A stretch of DNA of 64,000 nucleotides from Corallococcus macrosporus DSM 14697 (lineage in GTDB: Bacteria > Myxococcota > Myxococcia > Myxococcales > Myxococcaceae). Where the stretch lies: assembly GCF_002305895.1 (NCBI RefSeq), contig NZ_CP022203.1, forward strand, positions 7,474,001 through 7,538,000, in the 5' to 3' direction. Each line of letters starts with the position of its first letter. Position 1 is the first letter of the stretch. Positions 33,971 to 52,658 of this stretch are shown here, in pieces. The notes beneath the pieces are model-generated. The model searched no databases. It was not told where the DNA came from and saw only the letters and a list, made by a program, of their open reading frames with translations. Position numbers and translations under genes: made by a program.

Positions 33971-35239
33971 TCAGTTCGAGACGGCGATCTGCGCGTTCAC
34001 CAGGATTGCAGGGCCTGTGCTCGGATCGCCGCCGGGGGGCGTTGCCGGCGCCGGGACGGTGAAATGGTCAATGGCGCCAGGCTGAAAGACCAGGCACATG
34101 CTCGAACCGCCGTAGCTGAAGTAGCCCAGCTCGTCGCCCTTCGCGAGCTTGTCCCCCGGCTTGACGTTGATGGTCACCGAGGAGATTTCGGTGATGCCGA
34201 TTGGAATGACGCACACCATGCCAATCTTCGGGTTCGGGCTCTCAATGAAGATGAGCCCGCGTGTGTTCACACAGGCGTCATAGACTTCCGAATAGGTGCC
34301 CGCGGTCGGGTCAGCGCCCATGGCCTCCGCGTCACTGAACATCAACCCGTTCACCACGCGCGCGTCCCGCACAACGCCATCGATGGGTGAATGCCAGCGG
34401 TGGTAGTTCGCCCCACTCAGGAAGGACTGGAAGACGTAGCCCCCCACGAACCGATCGGCGAACTCGCTTCTGTCCAGCATGTCGAAGAGCGAATAGGGCT
34501 CCCCCTTGAGCCAGAACGTGTCCGTCCGCTGAACGCCTCTCGCGATGGAAACGATGCTGCCATCATTCGCGGAGACGATGACCTTCGGGTCGGACGGCGC
34601 GGCGATCGGCCGGGCCTCCTTCCGGATTTCGCGGTGGAAGAAGTCGTTGTACGACTTCCAGCCCCAGCAGGGCGCGGAGCGGTCGAAGATGAACTCGTAC
34701 AGCTTCATGTCCTGGTATGCGAACTGTGAAAGCCAGCCGTCCTCACCCTCGTTCAAGACGTGCGCGCTCTCTGCGCTGTCCAGGTACTGGCACCACTCCT
34801 GGAGGATGTCCTTGAGCGCCCGGTTGAACTCGTCATTCCGGAACACCGCTTCACCGGCCGGAGTCATCATCATGTACGCGAACAGCGAGGACATGGGGAA
34901 CGCGTTCCGCTTGTGCGGGTCCGCGTTGTAGAGCGGTGCGGTCACCGTGATGACATCGAGCGCCGCCAGGAGCTCGGCCGTGTTCTCGACGACTCTGTAG
35001 GCGGCAGGGACCTGGGCGATCATCGAATTGACATACATCCGGATGATTGCATTCGTGTCGATCAACTCCGTGAGCTTTCGGACCGCCTCGCTCCGCACCC
35101 GGCCCGTGGCGCGCGCGCGGAGCTGCGCCTTCAACTCCTGGTGCCAGGCCTGAAGGTGTCGTCTGTCTCGCGGCAGGTACCCGGCGCGGTATCCAAACAG
35201 GTTGCGGTACCGTGCATCGAGCCTGAGGTACATCCAGTC
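33971..35239 (-). pseudogene. Phosphatidylserine decarboxylase-like gene truncated by an IS256 element
   Basis: Reading from the IS junction, about 422 codons remain. They include an N-terminal helical part (RRHLQAWHQELKAQLRARAT) and the decarboxylase domain (SYNDFFHREIRKEARPI, YSLFDMLDRSEFADRFVGGY, FLSGANYHRWHSPIDG). The processing-site region is GYFSYGGSSMCLVF, where GGSS stands for the LGST/GST autocleavage motif that makes the pyruvoyl cofactor. The frame stays open into the IS antisense strand up to 36106, but that is not genuine protein. The native 5' end is missing, and no 5' part is found beyond the IS. Family: PSD-like proteins with an extra N-terminal domain, often in secondary metabolism. 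Confidence 0.8.
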
Positions 35240-36583
35240 GGTGTGGAAATGAGAAAGGCGACGTACCCTTCCCGTTGAACCAACCAAGACACCGGGTTGC
35301 AGCCCGGTGGGAAGGACACATCGCCCATGGAGAAGGGTACGCCCGAGTCGGGTGAGGCGCCAGCGTGCATCTGGCAGGAGTTGGAGACGTATGCCCGCCG
35401 GAAGGTGCAGGAGTTTGTCCAGGCGGTGCTTGAGGAGGAAGTCACGGAGCTGCTGGGCCGGGTGAAGTCGCAGCGCCGGGCGGCGGTGGATGCGGCGCGC
35501 GTCTACCGCAACGGGCACGGCAAGGCGCGCAAGCTGGCCATGCAGGGCGGCACCATCGAGGTGCGCAGGCCACGGGTGAGGGGCCTGGAGGAGCGCTTCG
35601 AGAGCCGGGTGCTGCCGCTGTTCGTGCGGCGCACCGAGCAGGTGGGCGCGCTGCTGCCGGAGCTGTACCTGCATGGACTGTCGAAGGGGGACTTCGAGTT
35701 GGCCCTGCGAGGTCTGCTGGGAGACGGGGCGCCCCTGTCGGCATCCTCGATTGAGCGGCTGAAGGGCAAGTGGCAGGCGGAGTACGACGCCTGGAGCGAG
35801 CGCCGGCTGGAGGAGCGGGAACTGGTCTACGCCTGGGCGGACGGGGTGTACGTGAAGGCCGGGCTGGAGAAGGACAAGGCGGCGCTGCTGGTGCTGGTGG
35901 GCGCGATGCGGGACGGACGCAAGGAGGTGCTGGCGGTAGTCCCGGGCCACCGTGAGTCGAAGGAGGCGTGGCTGGAGGTGCTGCGAGACTTGAAGGCCCG
36001 AGGGCTGGAAGCACCGAAGCTGCTGGTGGCCGACGGGGCGCTGGGCCTGTGGGCCGCACTGCCCGAGGTGTGGCCCGAGTCCAGCGAGCAGCGCTGCTGG
36101 AATCACAAGCTGGCCAACGTGCTGGACAAGCTTCCCAAGAAGCTGCAGCCCGAGGCCCGCCAGAAGCTATGCGCCATCCCCTACGCCAAGAGCCAGGCGG
36201 AGGCCGAGAAGCTGCGCGACGGCTTCAAGAAGCGCTACGGCCGCTGGCACCCGAAGGCCGCCGAGGCATTGGAGTCCGACTGGGAGCGACTGGTGGCCTT
36301 CTACGCCTTCCCCCAGGCGCACTGGAAGCACCTGCGCACCACCAACGTGGTGGAGAGCCCCTTCGCCTCCGTGCGCCTGCGCACCGACGCGGCCAAACGC
36401 TTCAAGAAGGTGCAGAACGCCACTGCCCTCATCTGGAAGGTGCTGCTGGTGGCCGAGAAGAAGTTCCGCCGGCTCGATGCCCCTGAGTTGCTCGCGGACG
36501 TGTTCGAGGGGCGGAAGTTCGTCGACGGAAAGCCCGTCAGGAAGACCGTAGTCAGGGACGCCGCCTGAACTCGTTTACACACC
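35240..36583 (+). mobile_element. IS256-family insertion sequence
   Basis: About 1.34 kb bounded by imperfect inverted repeats. The left end reads GGTGTGGAAATGAG from 35240 and the right end reads GGTGTGTAAACGAG inward from 36583 (12 of 14 identical). No direct target duplication is visible: the 8 bp on either side differ, so the insertion was followed by a deletion or rearrangement. It interrupts the decarboxylase-like gene. Confidence 0.8.
35327..36568 (+). CDS. IS256-family transposase
   Basis: About 413 residues from ATG 35327 (GGAAGGA upstream; a start at 35297 is also open). It has the Mutator/IS256 layout: VQEFVQAVLEEEVTELLGR at the N-terminus, then the DDE core with YAWADGVYVKAGLE, the second Asp in LLVADGALGLWAAL, the C/H-rich step QRCWNHKLANVLDKLPK, and the Glu region TTNVVESPFASVRLRT. 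It appears intact, so the element may still be active. Confidence 0.93.
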   Translation: MEKGTPESGEAPACIWQELETYARRKVQEFVQAVLEEEVTELLGRVKSQRRAAVDAARVYRNGHGKARKLAMQGGTIEVRRPRVRGLEERFESRVLPLFVRRTEQVGALLPELYLHGLSKGDFELALRGLLGDGAPLSASSIERLKGKWQAEYDAWSERRLEERELVYAWADGVYVKAGLEKDKAALLVLVGAMRDGRKEVLAVVPGHRESKEAWLEVLRDLKARGLEAPKLLVADGALGLWAALPEVWPESSEQRCWNHKLANVLDKLPKKLQPEARQKLCAIPYAKSQAEAEKLRDGFKKRYGRWHPKAAEALESDWERLVAFYAFPQAHWKHLRTTNVVESPFASVRLRTDAAKRFKKVQNATALIWKVLLVAEKKFRRLDAPELLADVFEGRKFVDGKPVRKTVVRDAA

Positions 36584-40967: not shown

Positions 40968-41128
40968 CGGCGAAGGCGATCAAGGCGCTGGCCGGGCACC
41001 AGAACTTCTCCAAAATCTGGCGCTTCATGCACCTGAGCCCGGCGGCCATCCGGATGCTGGAGGGAGCGAAGCCGAAAGCCCAAAATGAAACGGGCCGGAG
41101 ACCTTTAAACCTCCAGCCCGCTTCATGA
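40968..41128 (+). pseudogene. Tyrosine recombinase C-terminal remnant next to the left att copy
   Basis: The frame encodes IKALAGHQNFSKIWRFMHLS then PAAIRMLEG, which matches the conserved end of tyrosine integrases (LGHxxLxxTxRYxHLSP, with the catalytic Tyr replaced by Phe in RFMH). The stop is at 41128, 2 bp before the tRNA-Pro fragment. The N-terminal catalytic portion is absent. A more decayed second copy precedes the right repeat at 52424-52580. Confidence 0.75.
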
Positions 41129-41155
41129 CGTGGTCGGGGAGACAGGATTTGAACC
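41072..41155. repeat. Left direct repeat (att copy) with the tRNA-Pro 3' end
   Basis: These 84 bp match 52523-52606 at about 80 positions. They include the tRNA terminator hairpin (with differences in the loop) and the last 25 bp of the tRNA-Pro gene (41131-41155), after which the two copies diverge. Duplication of a tRNA 3' end is the usual footprint of integrase-mediated insertion. Confidence 0.88.
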
Positions 41156-41511: not shown

Positions 41512-41928
41512 GTGGCAGGGGAGGGGCAGGTGGAGGAGCGCGGGTGGGAGTACCGGCGGAGGCAGCCGGAGGGGACGGTGCTGTACGAGGCGGTGAGGGA
41601 CAACCTCGCCACGCTGCTGGCGGAGGCAGGTGAGCTGGGACGCGGCCTGCCCCGGTACGTGGAGCGGGACTTCGCCAAGTACCTGGAATGCGGAGTGCTG
41701 GCACACGGCTTCGCGCGGGTGCGCTGCGAGAGTTGCAAGGACGAACTGCTCGTCGCATTCTCGTGCAAGGGGCGAGGGGTGTGCCCCTCCTGCAACGCGA
41801 AGCGGGCGCATGTGACGACAGTGCACCTGGTGGAGCAGGTGCTGCCGCACGTGCCCTACCGGCAGTGGACGCTGAACCTGGAATCTGTAGAGCCAGCGCG
41901 TGTCCAGGCTCGCATGCTGGCTCGGTAG
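41512..41928 (+). pseudogene. N-terminal part of an IS91-family transposase
   Basis: The frame encodes the zinc-binding module [20 protein letters not shown], then [19 protein letters not shown], and [17 protein letters not shown]. This is the opening of IS91/ISCR-type rolling-circle transposases. Sequence then breaks to a stop at 41928 with an unrelated tail. The catalytic centre with its conserved Tyr is missing. Confidence 0.85.
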
Positions 41929-42149: not shown

Positions 42150-42680
42150 GGCCGCTGCCGAGAATTCCCCCAAGCAGGAGAGGAGGAGGCGAGCGTGGCG
42201 CCCCAGGCAGCTGCGAGGCAGGAAAAGAGGAAGGAGCGGACAGCGCGAGTGGACTGGGCAGGGCTGCTACGAAGGACCTTCGCGGTGGAGGTGTTGGCCT
42301 GCGTGAGGTGTGGAGGCAGGCGGCGAGTGCTGGCGTACGTGAAGGAAGCGGGAGGGGTGAGAGCGATTCTGGAGCACCTGGGCCTGCCCACGGCAGGTGC
42401 GAGGCTGGCCCCGGCGCGAGGGCCCCCCAGGCCGCGTGGTGTTGAGGCTCAAGCCGCCCGGGCCAAGAGAGCCAGCCCCCAGCCGCGCACCCCATGGGAG
42501 CGCAGCCTGGGCAGTCGTGTACCTCAAGGGGCTGCGCGGCCTGTCCACCGACCGGGCGCACTGCTCGGGCGGCCCCTGTCAGCGGTCCTCCTCGGCACCT
42601 GCGCTCCAGCCCTCACCCTCAACATGGCCTCTATCCCGCCTATACGCGGAGGTGAAAGTACGACTGACGGCGCCAAATGA
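42150..42680 (+). pseudogene. C-terminal part of the IS91-family transposase (left of cargo)
   Basis: In a different frame from the N-terminal part, 42190-42430 encodes VDWAGLLRRTFAVEVLACVR then CGGRRRVLAYVKEAGG and AILEHLGLPT, the conserved zinc-ribbon tail of IS91 transposases. The middle of the gene is gone. The same tail recurs at 45104-45295, so IS91 ends flank the cargo pair in direct orientation. Confidence 0.85.
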
Positions 42681-42706
42681 CGCCGGACAGTGGTAAGGGG
42701 GGTAGC

Positions 42707-44029
42707 GTGGGAACGGAAATTACGCTCGATGTCGCTGGAGTGTCAGTCACGTACAGCAAGAATCGCCGCGGAATTGATCATGGATCGATTTTCCAGGAAC
42801 AAGATCGAACGGCGATCAAGAGCAACCAGCTCGACTACGATTGGTATGAAGAGGAGGGCGAGGACCCCACACCTTCCGAGACGGCGTTCACGCGGCCGCT
42901 TAAGCACGTCGTTCCGCGCCTCGAACTCCTAGGCTTCAATCTGGAGCGCGTCCGCCTTGAATATGACGCCGTCGCGCAAGGCTGGCTAGAGGAGAGGCAG
43001 TCTCTTCAGGATGATGATGACGAGCCTATTCCCGGCCTGATGAGCTTTGAGGAGTTCTGCGCGTTTGCCACCGCGCATCCGCTCGACAGTCTCGACGACA
43101 CCTTTATCTTGGGCACGGACGATACAAGCGAAGAGAAAGTCCGAGGGCGCTTCAATGGGATGCAGTTAGAGCGGATTCCAGGCTATCGATCCTATGATAT
43201 TCAGGCCTATTCGGAGCGTAGCTTCTTCGGTCGCTTAGTAGATATCCTCCACCCATATTCGGTACTGCGGCTTTTGGCGGAGGCGAGGGCGAACGAGGGA
43301 GCTCCTGTTGTTTGGCAATATGGACCGTTGGTGCGGGCGGGATGGGCAGCAGAGCGGGAGTTCGTGCCCCACGCCCGGCGAACTGAGACCTTCCTGATCG
43401 CGACTGAAGGCAGCTCAGACGTCCACATCTTAAAGCATGCGCTCGCGCTGTTGCGGCCAGGGATAGCGGACTTCTTCCGCTTTATCGACGTGAGCGAAAG
43501 CCATCCGTTTTCGGGCACAGGCAATCTGGTGAAGTTTGCGGAAGGGCTCGCCAAGATAGACGTCCAGAATCAAGTCGTCTTCGTATTCGACAATGACGCC
43601 GAGGGGCTTGATGCCCATCAGCGTCTGTCCACGCTCACTCTCCCTGAGAACATGCGCGGGATCATGTTGCCCGAATTGGAGGACTTCAGAGCGTTTCCGG
43701 CTCAGGGTCCCGACGGGCTCCACAACTCGGACATTAACCGGCGCGCCGCGGCAATCGAGTGCTATCTCGATCTGGAGGTCGGCGGTCACCCGCCGGCCAA
43801 GGTGCTCTGGACCAACTACAAGAAGAGCCTCGGCACCTATCAGGGGGCACTGGAATACAAGGAGTTCTATAGCAAGGAATTCTTGAAACAGACGGCCGAG
43901 ACGTTGGCCGCAGGTGTGTATGACATCCGCAAGATTGAGTCAGTTCTCGATCTGCTCATTGCAGAATGTACAGCAATCGCTGTCGGCAAATGGGGCCCGG
44001 CAGACGTCGAATTGAGAGATGCCTTCTGA
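42707..44029 (+). CDS. HEPN/Toprim-type protein (putative defence effector)
   Basis: About 440 residues from GTG 42707, chosen because AAGGGGGG lies 5 bases upstream and the family begins 'MGTxIxLxV'; ATG 42677 is also open. Residues 1-200 match the N-terminal domain of HEPN/Toprim-associated proteins (GTEITLDVAGVSVTYSKNRR, and FTRPLKHVVPRLELLGFNLE). Residues about 225-340 form a Toprim domain: Glu234 in LIATEGSSD, and Asp295 and Asp297 in VFVFDNDAEG. Toprim folds cut or join nucleic acids with divalent metal. The gene has visibly more A/T at third positions than its surroundings. It shares a TGATG overlap with the protease gene. Confidence 0.8.
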   Translation: MGTEITLDVAGVSVTYSKNRRGIDHGSIFQEQDRTAIKSNQLDYDWYEEEGEDPTPSETAFTRPLKHVVPRLELLGFNLERVRLEYDAVAQGWLEERQSLQDDDDEPIPGLMSFEEFCAFATAHPLDSLDDTFILGTDDTSEEKVRGRFNGMQLERIPGYRSYDIQAYSERSFFGRLVDILHPYSVLRLLAEARANEGAPVVWQYGPLVRAGWAAEREFVPHARRTETFLIATEGSSDVHILKHALALLRPGIADFFRFIDVSESHPFSGTGNLVKFAEGLAKIDVQNQVVFVFDNDAEGLDAHQRLSTLTLPENMRGIMLPELEDFRAFPAQGPDGLHNSDINRRAAAIECYLDLEVGGHPPAKVLWTNYKKSLGTYQGALEYKEFYSKEFLKQTAETLAAGVYDIRKIESVLDLLIAECTAIAVGKWGPADVELRDAF

Positions 44030-45087
44030 TGGCTGAAAAAGGCGCCTTCCATGAAATCTATGTTCGGGCGGCAGGAGCCGTGGCATTCGTCGCCATCATC
44101 GATGCAAAGGGGGACGAGGGGATAGGCTCGGCGTTCCATATCGGCGATGGAATCTTCGTCACGGCCCGACACGTGATCGATGGGGTGACTATCAAAGAGA
44201 TCGCCACCACTAAGTCGGCGCACCTCAACGAAGAGGCAGGCGGCAAGGCAATTCCTCCGCGACGGCTGGAGATTGTCGATGGACCCCATTTCGGTCCGGA
44301 CGGTCTCGATGTCGCAGTCTTTCGGGTCGACCTCGGTACTACGCCGTTGCCGGCCATCACCGTCAGCCAGCATACGGATTACTCGCTCGGAGAGAATGAC
44401 CTAGTCCTCTCGGACATTCTCGTCGTCGGCTATCCACCCATCCCATTCACCACCGTGCCTAGCCAGGTCGTCACTCTGGGACAGATCAATGCATTGGTGC
44501 GCGTGCGACATTCTCCGGTGCTGCACTTTATCGCTTCGGCCATGCCGCGCGGCGGGTTCAGCGGAGGTGTTGTGCTTGATCGGTCAGGCGTCGCACTGGC
44601 GCTCGTGACGGAGAGCCTGGGCCTGAGCGATATGCCGGTGGAGACCGGCTACATGAGCCTTTTGTCGATCGAACCGGTGATGGATCTCGCGGCTGAAAAA
44701 TTCGGGTTCGGCGCCCACGGCGGCTATCCCGGCCGCTACACCGAAACGCTGTTCGCGGTAAAATTTTTGGACCCGTCCAGCCGGTCGCTCAGTTCCTTCA
44801 TCTATGACGCCAGCCTCTACGTCTATGATGACGACCGTGATGTGTTCGTCGAAATCAACTGTGCGGACGAGGCGCTGCTGGCCGAGGCGGTATCGATGTT
44901 CCACGCCATTACGCCTCTGACTCGTCACGACGTCATAGATGGGTCTGTCCTGTACACGCCGGAAGAGAATCCGTCCGCAGAACTACTGATCGAGGGGGGA
45001 GAGGCGGTCGCCGCGCTCTTCGAGAGGTCTGGCTACAAGAGGATGGCCATGGAACGCAGTCAGTGGCAGCTCAAGTCTAAGCGATAG
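44029..45087 (+). CDS. Trypsin-like serine protease coupled to the HEPN/Toprim gene
   Basis: About 352 residues from ATG 44029, whose first base is the last base of the upstream TGA. A complete trypsin-like triad is visible: His48 in FVTARHVID, Asp94 in GLDVAVFRVD and Ser178 in MPRGGFSGGVVLD. There is no signal peptide or membrane segment, so it should act in the cytoplasm. The C-terminal 150 residues are unassigned (SLYVYDDDRDVFVEINCADE). By analogy with protease-containing defence systems it could cleave the Toprim protein or a host target when triggered, but nothing in the sequence shows that. Base composition matches its partner and not the host. Confidence 0.85.
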   Translation: MAEKGAFHEIYVRAAGAVAFVAIIDAKGDEGIGSAFHIGDGIFVTARHVIDGVTIKEIATTKSAHLNEEAGGKAIPPRRLEIVDGPHFGPDGLDVAVFRVDLGTTPLPAITVSQHTDYSLGENDLVLSDILVVGYPPIPFTTVPSQVVTLGQINALVRVRHSPVLHFIASAMPRGGFSGGVVLDRSGVALALVTESLGLSDMPVETGYMSLLSIEPVMDLAAEKFGFGAHGGYPGRYTETLFAVKFLDPSSRSLSSFIYDASLYVYDDDRDVFVEINCADEALLAEAVSMFHAITPLTRHDVIDGSVLYTPEENPSAELLIEGGEAVAALFERSGYKRMAMERSQWQLKSKR

Positions 45088-45103: not shown

Positions 45104-45295
45104 CCATAGTGGCCACTCCCCCAAGCAGGTGAGGAGGAAGCGAGAGCGGGGAAGGAGGCAGCGGCCAGAACGGAGCGGATGCAGCAGAGAACGCCGCGAG
45201 TGGACTGGGCCGAGTTGCTGAGGAGGCCGTTCGACTTCGACGTGTTCGCCTGCGTGAGGTGCGGAGGCCGCAGGAGGGTGCTGGCATACTTGGCC
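45104..45295 (+). pseudogene. Second IS91-family transposase C-terminal fragment (right of cargo)
   Basis: TCCCCCAAGCAGG... from about 45116 aligns with 42162 onward, and the frame encodes RVDWAELLRRPFDFDVFACV and RCGGRRRVLAYL. It is a diverged copy of the tail at 42190-42430 in the same orientation. IS91-type elements can carry neighbouring genes by one-ended transposition, so the cargo pair may have arrived that way. Confidence 0.8.
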
Positions 45296-45613
45296 ACCTC
45301 AACGGGAATATGCGCTCGTACGCGTTGCTGAACCAGCCGTCGCCCGCTTCATGGGCTGTTAAGCGGTGATTGACAGTGCCAACCCCGTCGCACGCGCTGC
45401 GCAGCACCTGGAACGACCCGTGCGGCCTGCCAAGCGGGTCCCGGCGCAGCGGCCAGCGCGGCAACCAGATAGGTCTGCGGTGTGGAGACATTCTGGAGAC
45501 GCGAAGAAGCCAGAAAGCACCAGGGCCGGAAACCGCTGGGATTCCAGCGGCATCCGGCCCCGGTTTCAGTGTCCCCTACGGGATTTGAACCCGTGGACAC
45601 GGGGTGCGGAACC
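45296..45613. other. Gap with a partial tRNA 3' end (attachment-site remnant)
   Basis: No gene is present. At 45570-45598 the minus strand reads as the 3' end of a tRNA: T-arm ACGGG-TTCAAAT-CCCGT, acceptor half AGGGGAC and a discriminator A, without the 5' half. An imperfect hairpin of the tRNA-terminator type precedes it (45532-45568). A GGAGACATTCTGGAGAC motif near 45484 matches the one at 41286. The acceptor half resembles a tRNA-Glu, so a second integrase has probably used a different tRNA site here. Confidence 0.55.
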
Positions 45614-45646
45614 TGTCAACGCAAGTGAGACAGTGAGTTCGAGAAA

Positions 45647-46651
45647 TTACTGAGCAGCCTCCAGTGAGGAGGAGCGCCGAGCGGGGTCGTTTATCCAGAC
45701 GATGGTGGGCGGGGCCTTCGGCGTGGGTGCACCGCGAGGGAAGCGCTCGGGGTGAGCGGCGTAGGCCGCGGCGAGCACCGCGCGCCGGGCCGCGAGACGC
45801 TCGGCAGCCAGGCCGTGGTGCACGTCATAGGGCGTCAGCAGGCCGAGGCCACCGTGGTGGTGCTCGTTGTTGTACCAGCCGAAGAAGTCACCGCAGTGGC
45901 CGCGAGCGTCCTGGAGGCAGCCGAAGACTTCGGGAAAGTCGGGCTGGTACTTCATCGTCTTGAAGTGGGCCTCGCTGAAGGGGTTGTCGTTGGAGACGTA
46001 GGGCCGCGAGTGCGTCTTCGTCACACCCAGGTCGGCCATCAGCAAGGCCACCGGCTTGGACGTCATGGAGGAGCCCCGGTCGGCGTGAATCGTCAACTGG
46101 CCGGGCGCCACGCCCTGGCGCTCGCAGGTTGCCGCCAACAGCTTCTTGGCCAGGGTGGCCGACTCGCGGTGGGCCACCATCCACCCGACGACGTAGCGGC
46201 TGAAGACGTCCAGGACGACGTAGAGGTAGAAGTACGTCCACTTCGACGGGCCGTGCAGCTTCGTTATGTCCCAGCTCCAGAGTTCATTGGGCTTCGTCGC
46301 GTGCAACTGGGGCGCCGGGTGGTTGGGGTGGCGCAGCTGGTCGCGGCGCTCGCGCACCTGCTGATTCTCAGCGAGCACCCGGTACATGGTGCGCTCCGAG
46401 CACAGGTAGCGGCCCTCATCGAGGAGCTGCGCGTAGACTTCCGCGGGCGCGGCATCCACGAATCTCGGCTCGTGCAGCACCGAGAGCACCTCGGCCCGTT
46501 GCTCCGGCGGGAGAGCCCTGGGTGGGCTGGGCCTGTGCACCGGCCCGTGTCGGGGCTGGGCCTGCCGGTAGAAGGTGGCGCGCGGCAGGCCCAGGGCCTT
46601 GCACACCGGCGCCACGCCCAGGGCGTCGACGGCCTCCAGTGCCACGGCCAT
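45647..46651 (-). CDS. IS3-family transposase OrfB, copy A
   Basis: A 334-residue integrase-core (DDE) transposase with the HTH_21-type start (VAPVCKALGLPRATFYRQ). The catalytic core has ELWSWDITKLHGPSKWTYFY, LTIHADRGSSMTSKPVALL and SRPYVSNDNPFSEAHFKTMK, giving the D-D-E residues. It ends in the IS3-typical WYNNEHHHGGLGLLTPYDVH. It differs from copy B by few residues (for example FPEVFGC versus FPEGFGC). OrfB is intact here, but OrfA upstream is frameshifted. Confidence 0.93.
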   Translation of the reverse strand: MAVALEAVDALGVAPVCKALGLPRATFYRQAQPRHGPVHRPSPPRALPPEQRAEVLSVLHEPRFVDAAPAEVYAQLLDEGRYLCSERTMYRVLAENQQVRERRDQLRHPNHPAPQLHATKPNELWSWDITKLHGPSKWTYFYLYVVLDVFSRYVVGWMVAHRESATLAKKLLAATCERQGVAPGQLTIHADRGSSMTSKPVALLMADLGVTKTHSRPYVSNDNPFSEAHFKTMKYQPDFPEVFGCLQDARGHCGDFFGWYNNEHHHGGLGLLTPYDVHHGLAAERLAARRAVLAAAYAAHPERFPRGAPTPKAPPTIVWINDPARRSSSLEAAQ

Positions 46652-47054
46652 CAGGGCTCCTCGTTGGGCTTGGGCAGTTCCACGCCCAGGATTTCCGAAA
46701 CTTTTTTTGGAGGTCCAGCAGCGCCTCGGCGCGCTTGAGGCGCACCTGGGCCTGGGCCAGCTGCTTCTCCAGCTCGGCCACGCGCCGGGCGCTCGCGTCA
46801 GGCTCCTTCGCTGGTGGCCCTCGCTTCTTCGGGCTGCGGGCCGACAACTCTCCCGCATCGCGCTGGCGCCGCCACGCGCTCAGCAACAAGTACAGTCCTT
46901 CCCGGCGCAGCAGCGCTCCGACTTCACCGGGCTTCGTGCAGCGCTCTGCCTCCGCCAGCACCCGCAGCTTGTACTCCGCCGTGAAACCTCGGCGCCTGGC
47001 CTTCTCCACCACCTCGGTCTCCCTGACCCGAGCCTCTTCCATCACTGCGCTCAT
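46649..47054 (-). pseudogene. IS3 OrfA, copy A, frameshifted
   Basis: From ATG 47054 the frame matches OrfA of copy B through the helix-turn-helix (RRGFTAEYKLRVLAEAERCT) and the leucine-zipper region. A homopolymer has seven A residues here (46691-46697 on the plus strand as T7) but eight in copy B. The frame therefore shifts and the OrfA C-terminus is lost. There is also a 3-base difference at YLLLSAW versus YSSLLSAW. In IS3 elements an A-rich run is often the programmed slippage site, so the change may matter for function. Confidence 0.75.
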
Positions 47055-47119
47055 CGTCCCTGCCTGGGTCGCCCTGCACACTAAACTGCCGGGTACGAAC
47101 TGTCTCACTCACGTTGGCA

Positions 47120-47303
47120 GAGAGGGGAAAGCGCAGATTCCTGGTCATCAGGTCGACCGGTTTTCCAGGCTTCCGGCCACCGCGTGCCCCGCCGAGTCAA
47201 GGGCAAGCTCGCTCCGCTCGGCGCCTGGCGGCGCCCCTGTGACTCGGGGAACACGCGGCGACAGGGGGCCGCCGGCCAGCGCTCGGAGAGCACTGGCCTG
47301 AAG
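47120..47303. other. Segment between IS3 copy A and the ISL3 transposase gene
   Basis: About 180 bp without a coding signal. It begins just outside the IS3 end with GAGGGGAAAGCGCAG and may hold the downstream end of the ISL3 element, but I could not identify a clear inverted repeat. Confidence 0.4.
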
Positions 47304-48992: not shown

Positions 48993-49253
48993 CAGCGGTA
49001 CCCTGCCGGCACCGCCTGCTCCCTCGCTCGCGAATCACACAAAGTGCGGGAGAGTCACGAAATCGGGGCAAGCCCAAACCGCTCTGAAGTATCTCTGCGC
49101 CCCTGGTTCTGTCTCCAGAATGTCTCCAAGACGGGAGGGGACTCCGGGTGACAGGTGGGACTGACGAGGACTGCCCCATGGACTCGAAGTGCCCGGATTC
49201 ACTCACGATTCAGCGAAGGGCATGTGCCGTCGCGGGTTTGGGGCACCCCTCTC
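48993..49253. other. Segment holding a solo IS end and the inverted attachment-side repeat
   Basis: At 49055-49074 TCACGAAATCGGGGCAAGCC matches the IS end at 21527-21547. From 49106 to 49247 the sequence is the reverse complement of 41160-41312. No gene. Confidence 0.7.
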
Positions 49254-49318
49254 TGCCAACGTGAGTGAGACAGTTCGTACCCGGCAGTTTAGTGTGCAGG
49301 GCGACCCAGGCAGGGACG

Positions 49319-49726
49319 ATGAGCGCAGTGATGGAAGAGGCTCGGGTCAGGGAGACCGAGGTGGTGGAGAAGGCCAGGCGCCGAGGTTTCACGGCGGAGT
49401 ACAAGCTGCGGGTGCTGGCGGAGGCAGAGCGCTGCACGAAGCCCGGTGAAGTCGGAGCGCTGCTGCGCCGGGAAGGACTGTACTCGTCGCTGCTGAGCGC
49501 GTGGCGGCGCCAGCGCGATGCGGGAGAGTTGTCGGCCCGCAGCCCGAAGAAGCGAGGGCCACCAGCGAAGGAGCCTGACGCGAGCGCCCGGCGCGTGGCC
49601 GAGCTGGAGAAGCAGCTGGCCCAGGCCCAGGTGCGCCTCAAGCGCGCCGAGGCGCTGCTGGACCTCCAAAAAAAAGTTTCGGAAATCCTGGGCGTGGAAC
49701 TGCCCAAGCCCAACGAGGAGCCCTGA
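49319..49726 (+). CDS. IS3-family OrfA, copy B
   Basis: About 135 residues from ATG 49319. A helix-turn-helix (RRGFTAEYKLRVLAEAERCT, KPGEVGALLRREGLYSSLLS, AWRRQRDAGEL) is followed by a coiled-coil zipper (ARRVAELEKQLAQAQVRLKR) and the usual ending LQKKVSEILGVELP. A run of eight A residues near 49667-49674 lies at the QKK codons, a candidate slippage site for an OrfAB fusion. The stop overlaps the OrfB start (TGATG). Confidence 0.9.
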   Translation: MSAVMEEARVRETEVVEKARRRGFTAEYKLRVLAEAERCTKPGEVGALLRREGLYSSLLSAWRRQRDAGELSARSPKKRGPPAKEPDASARRVAELEKQLAQAQVRLKRAEALLDLQKKVSEILGVELPKPNEEP

Positions 49727-50730
49727 TGGCCGTGGCACTGGAGGCCGTCGACGCCCTGGGCGTGGCGCCGGTGTGCAAGGCCCTGGGCCTGCCGCGCGCC
49801 ACCTTCTACCGGCAGGCCCAGCCCCGACACGGGCCGGTGCACAGGCCCAGCCCACCCAGGGCTCTCCCGCCGGAGCAACGGGCCGAGGTGCTCTCGGTGC
49901 TGCACGAGCCGAGATTCGTGGATGCCGCGCCCGCGGAAGTCTACGCGCAGCTCCTCGATGAGGGCCGCTACCTGTGCTCGGAGCGCACCATGTACCGGGT
50001 GCTCGCTGAGAATCAGCAGGTGCGCGAGCGCCGCGACCAGCTGCGCCACCCCAACCACCCGGCGCCCCAGTTGCACGCGACGAAGCCCAATGAACTCTGG
50101 AGCTGGGACATAACGAAGCTGCACGGCCCGTCGAAGTGGACGTACTTCTACCTCTACGTCGTCCTGGACGTCTTCAGCCGCTACGTCGTCGGGTGGATGG
50201 TGGCCCACCGCGAGTCGGCCACCCTGGCCAAGAAGCTGTTGGCGGCAACCTGCGAGCGCCAGGGCGTGGCGCCCGGCCAGTTGACGATTCACGCCGACCG
50301 GGGCTCCTCCATGACGTCCAAGCCGGTGGCCTTGCTGATGGCCGACCTGGGTGTGACGAAGACGCACTCGCGGCCCTACGTCTCCAACGACAACCCCTTC
50401 AGCGAGGCCCACTTCAAGACGATGAAGTACCAGCCCGACTTTCCCGAAGGCTTCGGCTGCCTCCAGGACGCTCGCGGCCACTGCGGTGACTTCTTCGGCT
50501 GGTACAACAACGAGCACCACCACGGTGGCCTCGGCCTGCTGACGCCCTATGACGTGCACCACGGCCTGGCTGCCGAGCGTCTCGCGGCCCGGCGCGCGGT
50601 GCTCGCCGCGGCCTACGCCGCTCACCCCGAGCGCTTCCCTCGCGGTGCACCCACGCCGAAGGCCCCGCCCACCATCGTCTGGATAAACGACCCCGCTCGG
50701 CGCTCCTCCTCACTGGAGGCTGCTCAGTAA
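49726..50730 (+). CDS. IS3-family transposase OrfB, copy B
   Basis: A 334-residue DDE transposase, the same protein as in copy A with a few substitutions. The catalytic region has SWDITKLHGPSKWTYFYLYV, HADRGSSMTSKPVALLMADL and SNDNPFSEAHFKTMKYQPDF. It starts on the base after OrfA's TG, so translation is coupled. This is the complete copy and the likely source of transposition activity. Confidence 0.94.
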   Translation: MAVALEAVDALGVAPVCKALGLPRATFYRQAQPRHGPVHRPSPPRALPPEQRAEVLSVLHEPRFVDAAPAEVYAQLLDEGRYLCSERTMYRVLAENQQVRERRDQLRHPNHPAPQLHATKPNELWSWDITKLHGPSKWTYFYLYVVLDVFSRYVVGWMVAHRESATLAKKLLAATCERQGVAPGQLTIHADRGSSMTSKPVALLMADLGVTKTHSRPYVSNDNPFSEAHFKTMKYQPDFPEGFGCLQDARGHCGDFFGWYNNEHHHGGLGLLTPYDVHHGLAAERLAARRAVLAAAYAAHPERFPRGAPTPKAPPTIVWINDPARRSSSLEAAQ

Positions 50731-50763
50731 TTTCTCGAACTCACTGTCTCACTTGCGTTGACA

Positions 50764-50885
50764 GGTTCCGTTCACGAGACCGCCAACAGCCGCGCCAGCT
50801 TCAACTTGCTGCGTCGCCGCGTGCTGCTCGCCGCCTGAGCCTACCCTTCACATAAAGTGCGGGAGAACCACGGAATCGGGGCAGG
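50764..50885 (+). pseudogene. Short transposase tail and solo IS end
   Basis: 50776-50838 encodes ETANSRASFNLLRRRVLLAA followed by a TGA, which looks like the tail of a lost transposase or other gene. At 50868-50885 CCACGGAATCGGGGCAGG is a third copy of the IS end seen at 21527 and 49055. It abuts the broken IS1182-like gene. Confidence 0.5.
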
Positions 50886-51339: not shown

Positions 51340-52221
51340 TCACTTTGGCTGCGCATTTACAACTGCCCGGGCCAAAACTGAAGGGCTCGATGGTGCAACT
51401 GCGATATTCCGCACCTCGTAGTTAAGCCCCTGAACTGACGGCACTACAGGCATCACCGGAAGACAGTCCTCACTCACCAGCACTAAGTACCGGTGCGATG
51501 AAAGTTCAAAGCCAGCGAGCGTCCCGTGAGTGTATCGCTCAGCTTGAACGAATGCCTCCATCGCCTTTTTTGCCGAATCGTCTCCCCGACGAACTACTTT
51601 CCATTCCGTAAGTACCATGGCATCAGCAGAGCGCACCGCATCATCCTCACGCACCTGCTCACCGAGGATGAGGTCGGTCTTCCCTCCCGCAGCCTCTGCT
51701 TTAAATGCCCAGATACCGTGCAGCAACAGGTGCACTGCGCCGAGCTTTTCGCATGCATCCTCACTTCGTCTGCTCTCGACAGTAAAGGCTTCGTACCACT
51801 TCTTTCGAAAGTCACCATCCGCCACGATGCTCCGCTGCAAATGGACGAATGCTCTTTCGACAGCACGCCGCGCCCTCGCTTGTTTATCGGTAAGATAGTA
51901 ATCCACCTGGGCCCTCACCGTGGCAAGCAGCAAGGTGAGTGTCATCCCATGAGAATGGGCTTGTATTTCGAATCTAACGCCATCTTCCTTGAACAGTCTC
52001 TTGAGCGCATCTGCAGCGCCGGCAGGAAGCTGGGAAGCGAAGCGCTCGTGAAAATCAAGAAGAAGACTGTACAGCTTTAGCAATTCTGGCGTTATGACAT
52101 GCGACTCTGCCCAACGCCGCTCTGCAGCTCCATCAGGCTGCAAACTGAGCAATAGCTGCGCTGCATCAAACACCGCAGTGAGGCGAGCCGACCACGCTGT
52201 CCACTCATCAATCCAGAGCAT
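51340..52221 (-). CDS. Hypothetical protein with a possible PD-(D/E)XK nuclease core
   Basis: A 293-residue soluble protein of lower GC content than its surroundings. The N-terminal 130 residues are helical. Then GAVHLLLHGIWAFKAEAAGG is followed by KTDLILGEQV and, about 17 residues later, AMVLTEWKVVRRGDD. A spaced D...E-x-K (Asp in TDL, EWK) on adjacent strands is the usual arrangement of PD-(D/E)XK nucleases. The end (FELSSHRYLVLVSEDCLPVM) reads as the beta-strand that closes such folds. No family name is recalled. Its place at the island's right end suggests accessory, perhaps anti-phage, function. Confidence 0.6.
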   Translation of the reverse strand: MLWIDEWTAWSARLTAVFDAAQLLLSLQPDGAAERRWAESHVITPELLKLYSLLLDFHERFASQLPAGAADALKRLFKEDGVRFEIQAHSHGMTLTLLLATVRAQVDYYLTDKQARARRAVERAFVHLQRSIVADGDFRKKWYEAFTVESRRSEDACEKLGAVHLLLHGIWAFKAEAAGGKTDLILGEQVREDDAVRSADAMVLTEWKVVRRGDDSAKKAMEAFVQAERYTHGTLAGFELSSHRYLVLVSEDCLPVMPVVPSVQGLNYEVRNIAVAPSSPSVLARAVVNAQPK

Positions 52222-52522
52222 TGCTTCTCCGTGAACACCTTGCCCGAGGCGCGGCTCCGCGATTTTACTTGCGAGGTGAGCGGCGACACAGGCTCCCCCT
52301 CACTTAGCGGCGTGCCACATCGTGACGATGGCAGGCTGCCGTGTGCAATGTAGAGGTAAGTCCGGAGGTGAGGAGCATCCACATCCTCCGCCACACCGTC
52401 TGCTCGCGCGGCTGGCGATGGAGCCCCCCCGGGCAAAGGAAACCCGGGCGTTGCCCGGGCACAACATGCGCCTGAACCCGGCGGCCCTATCAGTGACCAT
52501 CTGGAGCCAAGGAGGGACAATA
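52222..52522. other. Island right margin with a decayed integrase tail
   Basis: No intact gene. About 52424-52580 on the plus strand gives ARALPGHNMRLNPAALSVTI in a frame that ends like the integrase tail at 41128 ([16 protein letters not shown]). It is a more damaged copy of the same recombinase C-terminus, placed next to the right att copy as expected for an island. Confidence 0.6.
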
Positions 52523-52606
52523 CCGAAAGCCCAAAATGAAACGGGCTGGAGACCTTTCGGCCTCCAGCCCGCTTCATGACGTGGTCGGGGAGACAGGATT
52601 TGAACC
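52523..52606. repeat. Right direct repeat (att copy) inside the tRNA-Pro gene
   Basis: Matches 41072-41155 as described for the left copy. It spans the terminator and the 3' 25 bp of the intact tRNA. Confidence 0.88.
52533..52572 (-). terminator. tRNA-Pro terminator
   Basis: On the minus strand GCGGGCTGGAG pairs with CTCCAGCCCGT over 11 bp (one G-U), followed by TTCATTTT. It starts 10 bp after the tRNA 3' end. Confidence 0.85.
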
Positions 52607-52658
52607 TGCGACCCCTTGGTCCCGAACCAAGTGCTCTACCAGGCTGAGCCACTCCCCG
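52582..52658 (-). tRNA. tRNA-Pro (anticodon CGG)
   Basis: A 77-nt cloverleaf with encoded CCA. Acceptor stem CGGGGAG/CTCCCCG with discriminator A; D-arm GCTC-AGCCTGGTA-GAGC; anticodon stem CTTGG/CCAAG with loop TTCGGGA, giving anticodon CGG at the central three positions; T-arm GCAGG-TTCAAAT-CCTGT. Codon read is CCG, frequent in this GC-rich genome. Its 3' end is the attachment site of the island. Confidence 0.96.

Follow-up and report, generated by a model that had tools for sequence, protein, structure and literature searches.

A 64,000-nucleotide stretch of the Corallococcus macrosporus genome (the window) carries two overlapping genes, one for a Toprim protein with an N-terminal HEPN/Toprim-NTD1 domain and one for a trypsin-like serine protease, and this pair is conserved, within limits, in other bacteria. 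We favor, at roughly even confidence, the reading that it combines a mobile, self-sufficient Toprim defense effector with a translationally coupled, dispensable cytosolic protease gained in one lineage. The protease is regarded as an optional add-on because each gene also occurs alone elsewhere. The features of the locus are listed in Table 1.

Table 1. Features in and around the two-gene segment (window coordinates).
Feature	Position	Strand	Basis or remark
tRNA-Pro 3'-end direct repeat, att-like	41059–41155	.	92% over 97 bp to 52511–52606
IS91-type zinc-binding transposase remnant	41512–41928		PF14319; upstream of the 42166–42341 repeat
176-bp direct repeat, upstream copy flanking the pair	42166–42341	+	74% identical to 45117–45292
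Putative ribosome-binding site of Toprim gene, AAGGGGGG	42695–42702	+	sequence; several homologues have comparable purine stretches upstream
HEPN/Toprim-NTD1 + Toprim protein, 440 aa, GTG start	42707–44029	+	PF18871; homologues start likewise; stop codon 44027–44029
HEPN_Toprim_N domain, residues 2–227	42710–43387	+	PF18871, E = 8e-78
Toprim core, residues 229–320	43391–43666	+	catalytic residues (E234 at 43406, D295 at 43589, D297 at 43595); predicted beta-alpha order
Putative protease ribosome-binding site within Toprim 3' end, TTGAGAGA	44012–44019	+	
TGATG stop/start overlap of Toprim gene and protease	44027–44031	+	
Trypsin-like serine protease, 352 aa	44029–45087	+	Trypsin_2 PF13365, E = 2.5e-13; ATG at 44029, stop 45085–45087; H48 at 44170, D94 at 44308, S178 at 44560
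Protease C-terminal domain, residues 231–352	44719–45084	+	predicted two beta-beta-alpha repeats, low confidence
176-bp direct repeat, downstream copy	45117–45292	+	94% copy elsewhere in genome
tRNA-Pro 3' end + flank, att-like copy	52511–52606	.	direct repeat
tRNA-Pro	52582–52658		

The PF18871 match of the Toprim protein is full-length (profile positions 2–223 of 223), and the catalytic residues E234, D295, and D297 named in the initial annotation are in place and invariant among 13 aligned Toprim protein sequences; the match to Toprim_2 fell below the Pfam cut-off (E = 0.018). The label "HEPN/Toprim" held for the HEPN_Toprim_N and Toprim domains, but no HEPN domain was found in the protein, only the N-terminal domain common to HEPN and Toprim proteins. 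An alternative in-frame ATG lies 30 bases upstream of the GTG at 42707, and the close homologues start at the equivalent of this GTG (MGT...). Pfam searches detected an ATPase domain in neither protein, the Toprim protein had no MBL-fold match, and neither protein had a match in the PDB by sequence. With mean pLDDT values of 54 and 38, the structure models had low confidence and were used for secondary structure only; they give no basis for proposing an interface or a cleavage site. Fold matches of the Toprim model, all weak and non-significant, included OLD nucleases, PARIS, and GajA and would fit a nuclease of that class.

HEPN_Toprim_N is a candidate sensor or gating domain. Because fusions of the same domain with Mrr, HEPN, and Toprim exist, it seems to be a transferable regulatory or sensing module, with the C-terminal domain as the presumable effector. 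An obligate sensor/effector unit of the two proteins lost ground here, since the Toprim protein has this candidate sensor domain of its own, found elsewhere on Mrr or HEPN effectors.

The protease has the complete H48/D94/S178 triad, as first described, and inspection by eye revealed no evident signal peptide, in agreement with the proposed lack of an export signal. No second known domain was found in this 352-aa stand-alone protein with Pfam or PADLOC. Its C-terminal domain is missing from distant relatives, which match the catalytic domain only. Foldseek matches of this domain to TM1457, EutS, and CutR were not significant and were rejected as likenesses. One such distant relative lies directly upstream of genes for ShosA (DprA-like) and a phosphoribosyltransferase (L020, 4902–8058), possibly another protease-associated defense locus. 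Viral contigs contained no relatives of either protein, the Toprim protein had a single, partial match in phage records, and PHROGs gave a weak match for the protease only.

The TGATG overlap noted in the initial annotation is exact in the sequence, and conservation of the two genes as neighbors was borne out. Intact pairs were found at five loci: the window, Paracoccus sanguinis (L003), a Tepidamorphus MAG (L005), Rhizobium rhizogenes (L006), and alphaproteobacterium G555 (L056). All five keep the TGATG junction, and the putative internal ribosome-binding site is kept as TTGAGAG or CTGAGAG in every pair and at both loci with protease remnants. At these two loci, in Sulfitobacter (L007) and Bradyrhizobium (L011), the junction region and the first protease codons (about 11 and 7 codons, respectively, right after the Toprim stop) are followed by unrelated DNA; in Bradyrhizobium the protease start codon itself is altered. 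In a phylogenetic tree, the proteases of the pairs formed one clade (100/100) apart from the solo proteases. The first tree was compatible with one protease gain and several losses, and most nodes lost resolution once the fifth pair (L056) was added, so that the trees do not fix the number of gains and losses.

The junction bears on the possibility that two independent defense genes simply travel together, stacked on the same mobile elements. Such stacking would account for the finding of both genes alone near defense genes, constrained when alone, and for the deletion of the protease from at least two loci with the Toprim gene kept. However, the five pairs have diverged at synonymous sites by about 0.4 to 1.7, yet every one retains the TGATG and the ribosome-binding site in the Toprim 3' end, and we consider mere co-travel rather unlikely.

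Relatives of the Toprim protein were searched with short peptide patterns over one genome per species (84,980 genomes). Full or partial relatives with 52–90% identity were found in Proteobacteria, the nearest (90%) in Paracandidimonas. The family is rare, occurring in about 1–2% or less of the genomes sampled (385 alphaproteobacterial, 369 gammaproteobacterial, and 193 from the window's own phylum), and the counts of pairs are therefore small. The family was found in only 3 of the 193 own-phylum genomes and was absent from the other same-genus genomes listed in that sample, so that the Toprim gene is a recent import in Corallococcus macrosporus. One of the three, a myxobacterium that shares its family with Corallococcus macrosporus, encodes a fusion of HEPN_Toprim_N and an Mrr catalytic domain (L026, 1501–2700).

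No related trypsin-like gene lay near any of about 25 further Toprim loci, a count that includes the records from plasmids and E. coli. Four protease-free copies (L002, L004, L008, and L009) are 82–90% identical to the window Toprim protein. Full-length protease relatives with 77% identity stand alone in Agrobacterium and Rhizobium plasmids; these solo proteases have TGATG at their start, which is no more than suggestive of a derivation from pairs.

Selection was assessed from pairwise dN/dS by the NG86 method, with dS often high. The values were about 0.05–0.14 for the Toprim gene and 0.05–0.13 for the protease; both are under purifying selection. The protease-free Toprim genes of L004 and L009 gave 0.113 at a dS of 0.41. 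Because this is in the range of the paired loci, a Toprim gene that lacks the protease still appears to be functional, although loss of the protease need not imply full Toprim function alone. The solo proteases L017–L019 are constrained too (0.10–0.13).

Mean dN is 0.130 in the N-terminal half of the Toprim protein versus 0.079 in the Toprim half at similar dS (1.27 and 1.45, respectively), so that the N-terminal half evolves faster. Between the Toprim genes of L005 (6001–7323) and L006 (6001–7317), dN was 0.027 in the Toprim half and 0.022 in the adjoining protease but 0.124 in the N-terminal half, suggesting that the N-terminal part was replaced by recombination.

These data also bear on an obligate protease-gated nuclease, that is, a Toprim proenzyme cut by the downstream protease on infection, the mechanism shown for the MBL nuclease/trypsin pairs of Hachiman and AVAST. 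By analogy, the order of nuclease gene and then trypsin-like protease gene is that of these MBL-fold pairs (PMC12799240), the translational coupling is conserved, and in L005/L006 the Toprim core and the protease stay close while the N-terminal half differs. However, most Toprim relatives, several of them at 80–90% identity, are protease-free yet equally constrained, the protease also occurs alone, and co-inheritance can be explained by physical linkage alone. We therefore regard obligate gating as doubtful, though possible. The initial annotation had proposed that the two proteins form one sensor/effector unit: the defense context, the conserved neighbors, and the junction agree with a unit, but its obligate character is not supported, since Toprim homologues, very close ones included, mostly lack the protease. 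A restraining protease that degrades the Toprim protein in healthy cells, like an antitoxin, would fit the tight coupling of the two genes; it is very improbable given that loci with a lost protease retain an intact, constrained Toprim gene and that many solo Toprim copies need no such partner.

Relatives of both genes were found in defense-island contexts. The Rhizobium rhizogenes pair is preceded by IetA and IetS and followed by GajB and GajA (IetAS and Gabija), a GajA match lies downstream of the Paracoccus pair, and an SMC-like ATPase with LmuB as its best PADLOC model lies near the G555 pair. The solo Toprim copy of L008 adjoins DzbA and DzbB (Dazbog), those of E. coli lie beside Qat genes or, as prophage cargo, by the intE integrase near icd, and those of Aeromonas and Microbulbifer lie amid prophage-type structural genes (judged by eye in Microbulbifer). 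CBASS genes are close to the solo proteases of the Agrobacterium and Rhizobium plasmids. Because the neighbors elsewhere are the named systems Gabija, IetAS, Dazbog, Qat, and CBASS, a defense role is likely for both genes, by association only. ParB-like proteins are encoded upstream of the pairs in both Paracoccus and G555, and an ArdC-type antirestriction protein in the neighborhood of the Tepidamorphus pair; such proteins are usual cargo of conjugative elements.

In the window, the GC content is 57–59% over the two-gene segment versus about 65–70% in the surrounding DNA, confirming the lower GC first reported, and the pair is bracketed by tRNA-Pro and a 97-bp direct repeat of its 3' end. Because of the lower GC and the two flanking tRNA-Pro 3'-end copies, the proposed tRNA-linked island is a fair reading of the 11.5-kb segment between them; no integrase was seen among its ORFs. 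The segment has been eroded by, and is now full of, insertion sequences, and the ORFs flanking the pair are remnants of such elements. The 176-bp repeats and the transposase remnant hint at, and do not prove, an IS91-type route of entry for the pair. Two IS3-type insertion sequences (45607–47127 and 49246–50770), 99.6% identical and in opposite orientation, enclose an ISL3-like transposase ORF, a layout resembling a compound transposon (the transposase families were assigned by eye). A low-GC 293-aa ORF adjoining the tRNA (51340–52221, minus strand) had no Pfam or PADLOC match. Farther upstream, a phosphatidylserine decarboxylase-like ORF (33971–36568) overlaps an opposite-strand IS256-like transposase ORF (35297–36568, by eye); the decarboxylase-like gene may be interrupted, or the N-terminal portion of its ORF may be spurious.

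In our favored reading, the Toprim gene would be a mobile, self-sufficient effector against phages or mobile elements. Its HEPN/Toprim-NTD1 domain may sense infection or gate the protein, and the Toprim domain, once released, would cut nucleic acid, probably harming the infected cell. The protease would have been added directly downstream in one lineage that moved between Proteobacteria on mobile elements and reached the myxobacterium Corallococcus macrosporus. Translated by coupling through TGATG, it may act as an accessory by which the response is broadened or made more precise, most likely through cleavage of the Toprim protein or of its trigger; activation of the Toprim protein by proteolysis is a plausible, putative step. 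Closely related Toprim genes that naturally have or lack the protease offer a ready-made comparison for asking whether a protease can be added to an autonomous defense nuclease, and what it contributes there.

HEPN/Toprim-NTD1 proteins (PF18871) were described in silico in 2013 as predicted conflict-system proteins, with the N-terminal domain fused to HEPN, Mrr, or Toprim effectors (Anantharaman et al., PMC3710099). The window protein has the same N-terminal domain and a Toprim effector, and it belongs with them by its full-length PF18871 domain, its Glu and DxD residues, and the defense contexts of its relatives; the main text of that paper mentions no trypsin-like protease partner. Members of the family are annotated only as "HEPN/Toprim-associated domain-containing protein", and the papers searched report no experimental function for it. 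OLD nucleases, Gabija GajA, and PARIS AriB likewise have a Toprim nuclease core in defense, but they work with ABC-type ATPase partners or domains, and none lies beside the pair here. PADLOC 2.0 (systems named up to 2023) gave no match for the window Toprim protein up to E = 1; three further PF18871 proteins had none either, at a limit of 1e-5. The protease matched PADLOC RT-Protease_XI and PDC-M35A (E = 1.7e-5 to 2.4e-4), with which it shares a trypsin-like domain; the window locus, unlike RT-Protease_XI, has no reverse transcriptase, and the likeness to both is probably only at the domain level. In line with the initial annotation, the pairing of Toprim protein and trypsin-like protease matched no named system in PADLOC 2.0 or in the literature searched, which included few subscription papers or bioRxiv preprints. 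Relative to these sources, the Toprim family is known in silico, and what is new is its combination with a stand-alone trypsin-like protease.

Another close parallel is the set of nuclease-protease pairs of Hachiman, AVAST, Lamassu, and DRT, and canu, described in 2025 (Tuck et al., PMC12799240), in which a nuclease gene also lies upstream of a trypsin-like protease in defense loci. Their nuclease has the MBL fold, whereas a Toprim protein takes its place here, and Toprim is not mentioned in the main text of that paper. Their trypsin-like domain is fused to a HamA, Avs1a, or LmuA-type defense enzyme, whereas the protease here stands alone and has its own C-terminal domain. Membership in that system was rejected because the nuclease fold and the protease fusion differ. 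A putative protease-activated system, in which the cytosolic trypsin-like protease frees a Toprim nuclease held inactive by HEPN/Toprim-NTD1, is a tentative proposal, at about one chance in four; if true, the nuclease-protease principle would have arisen here a second time, independently and with a nuclease of unrelated fold.
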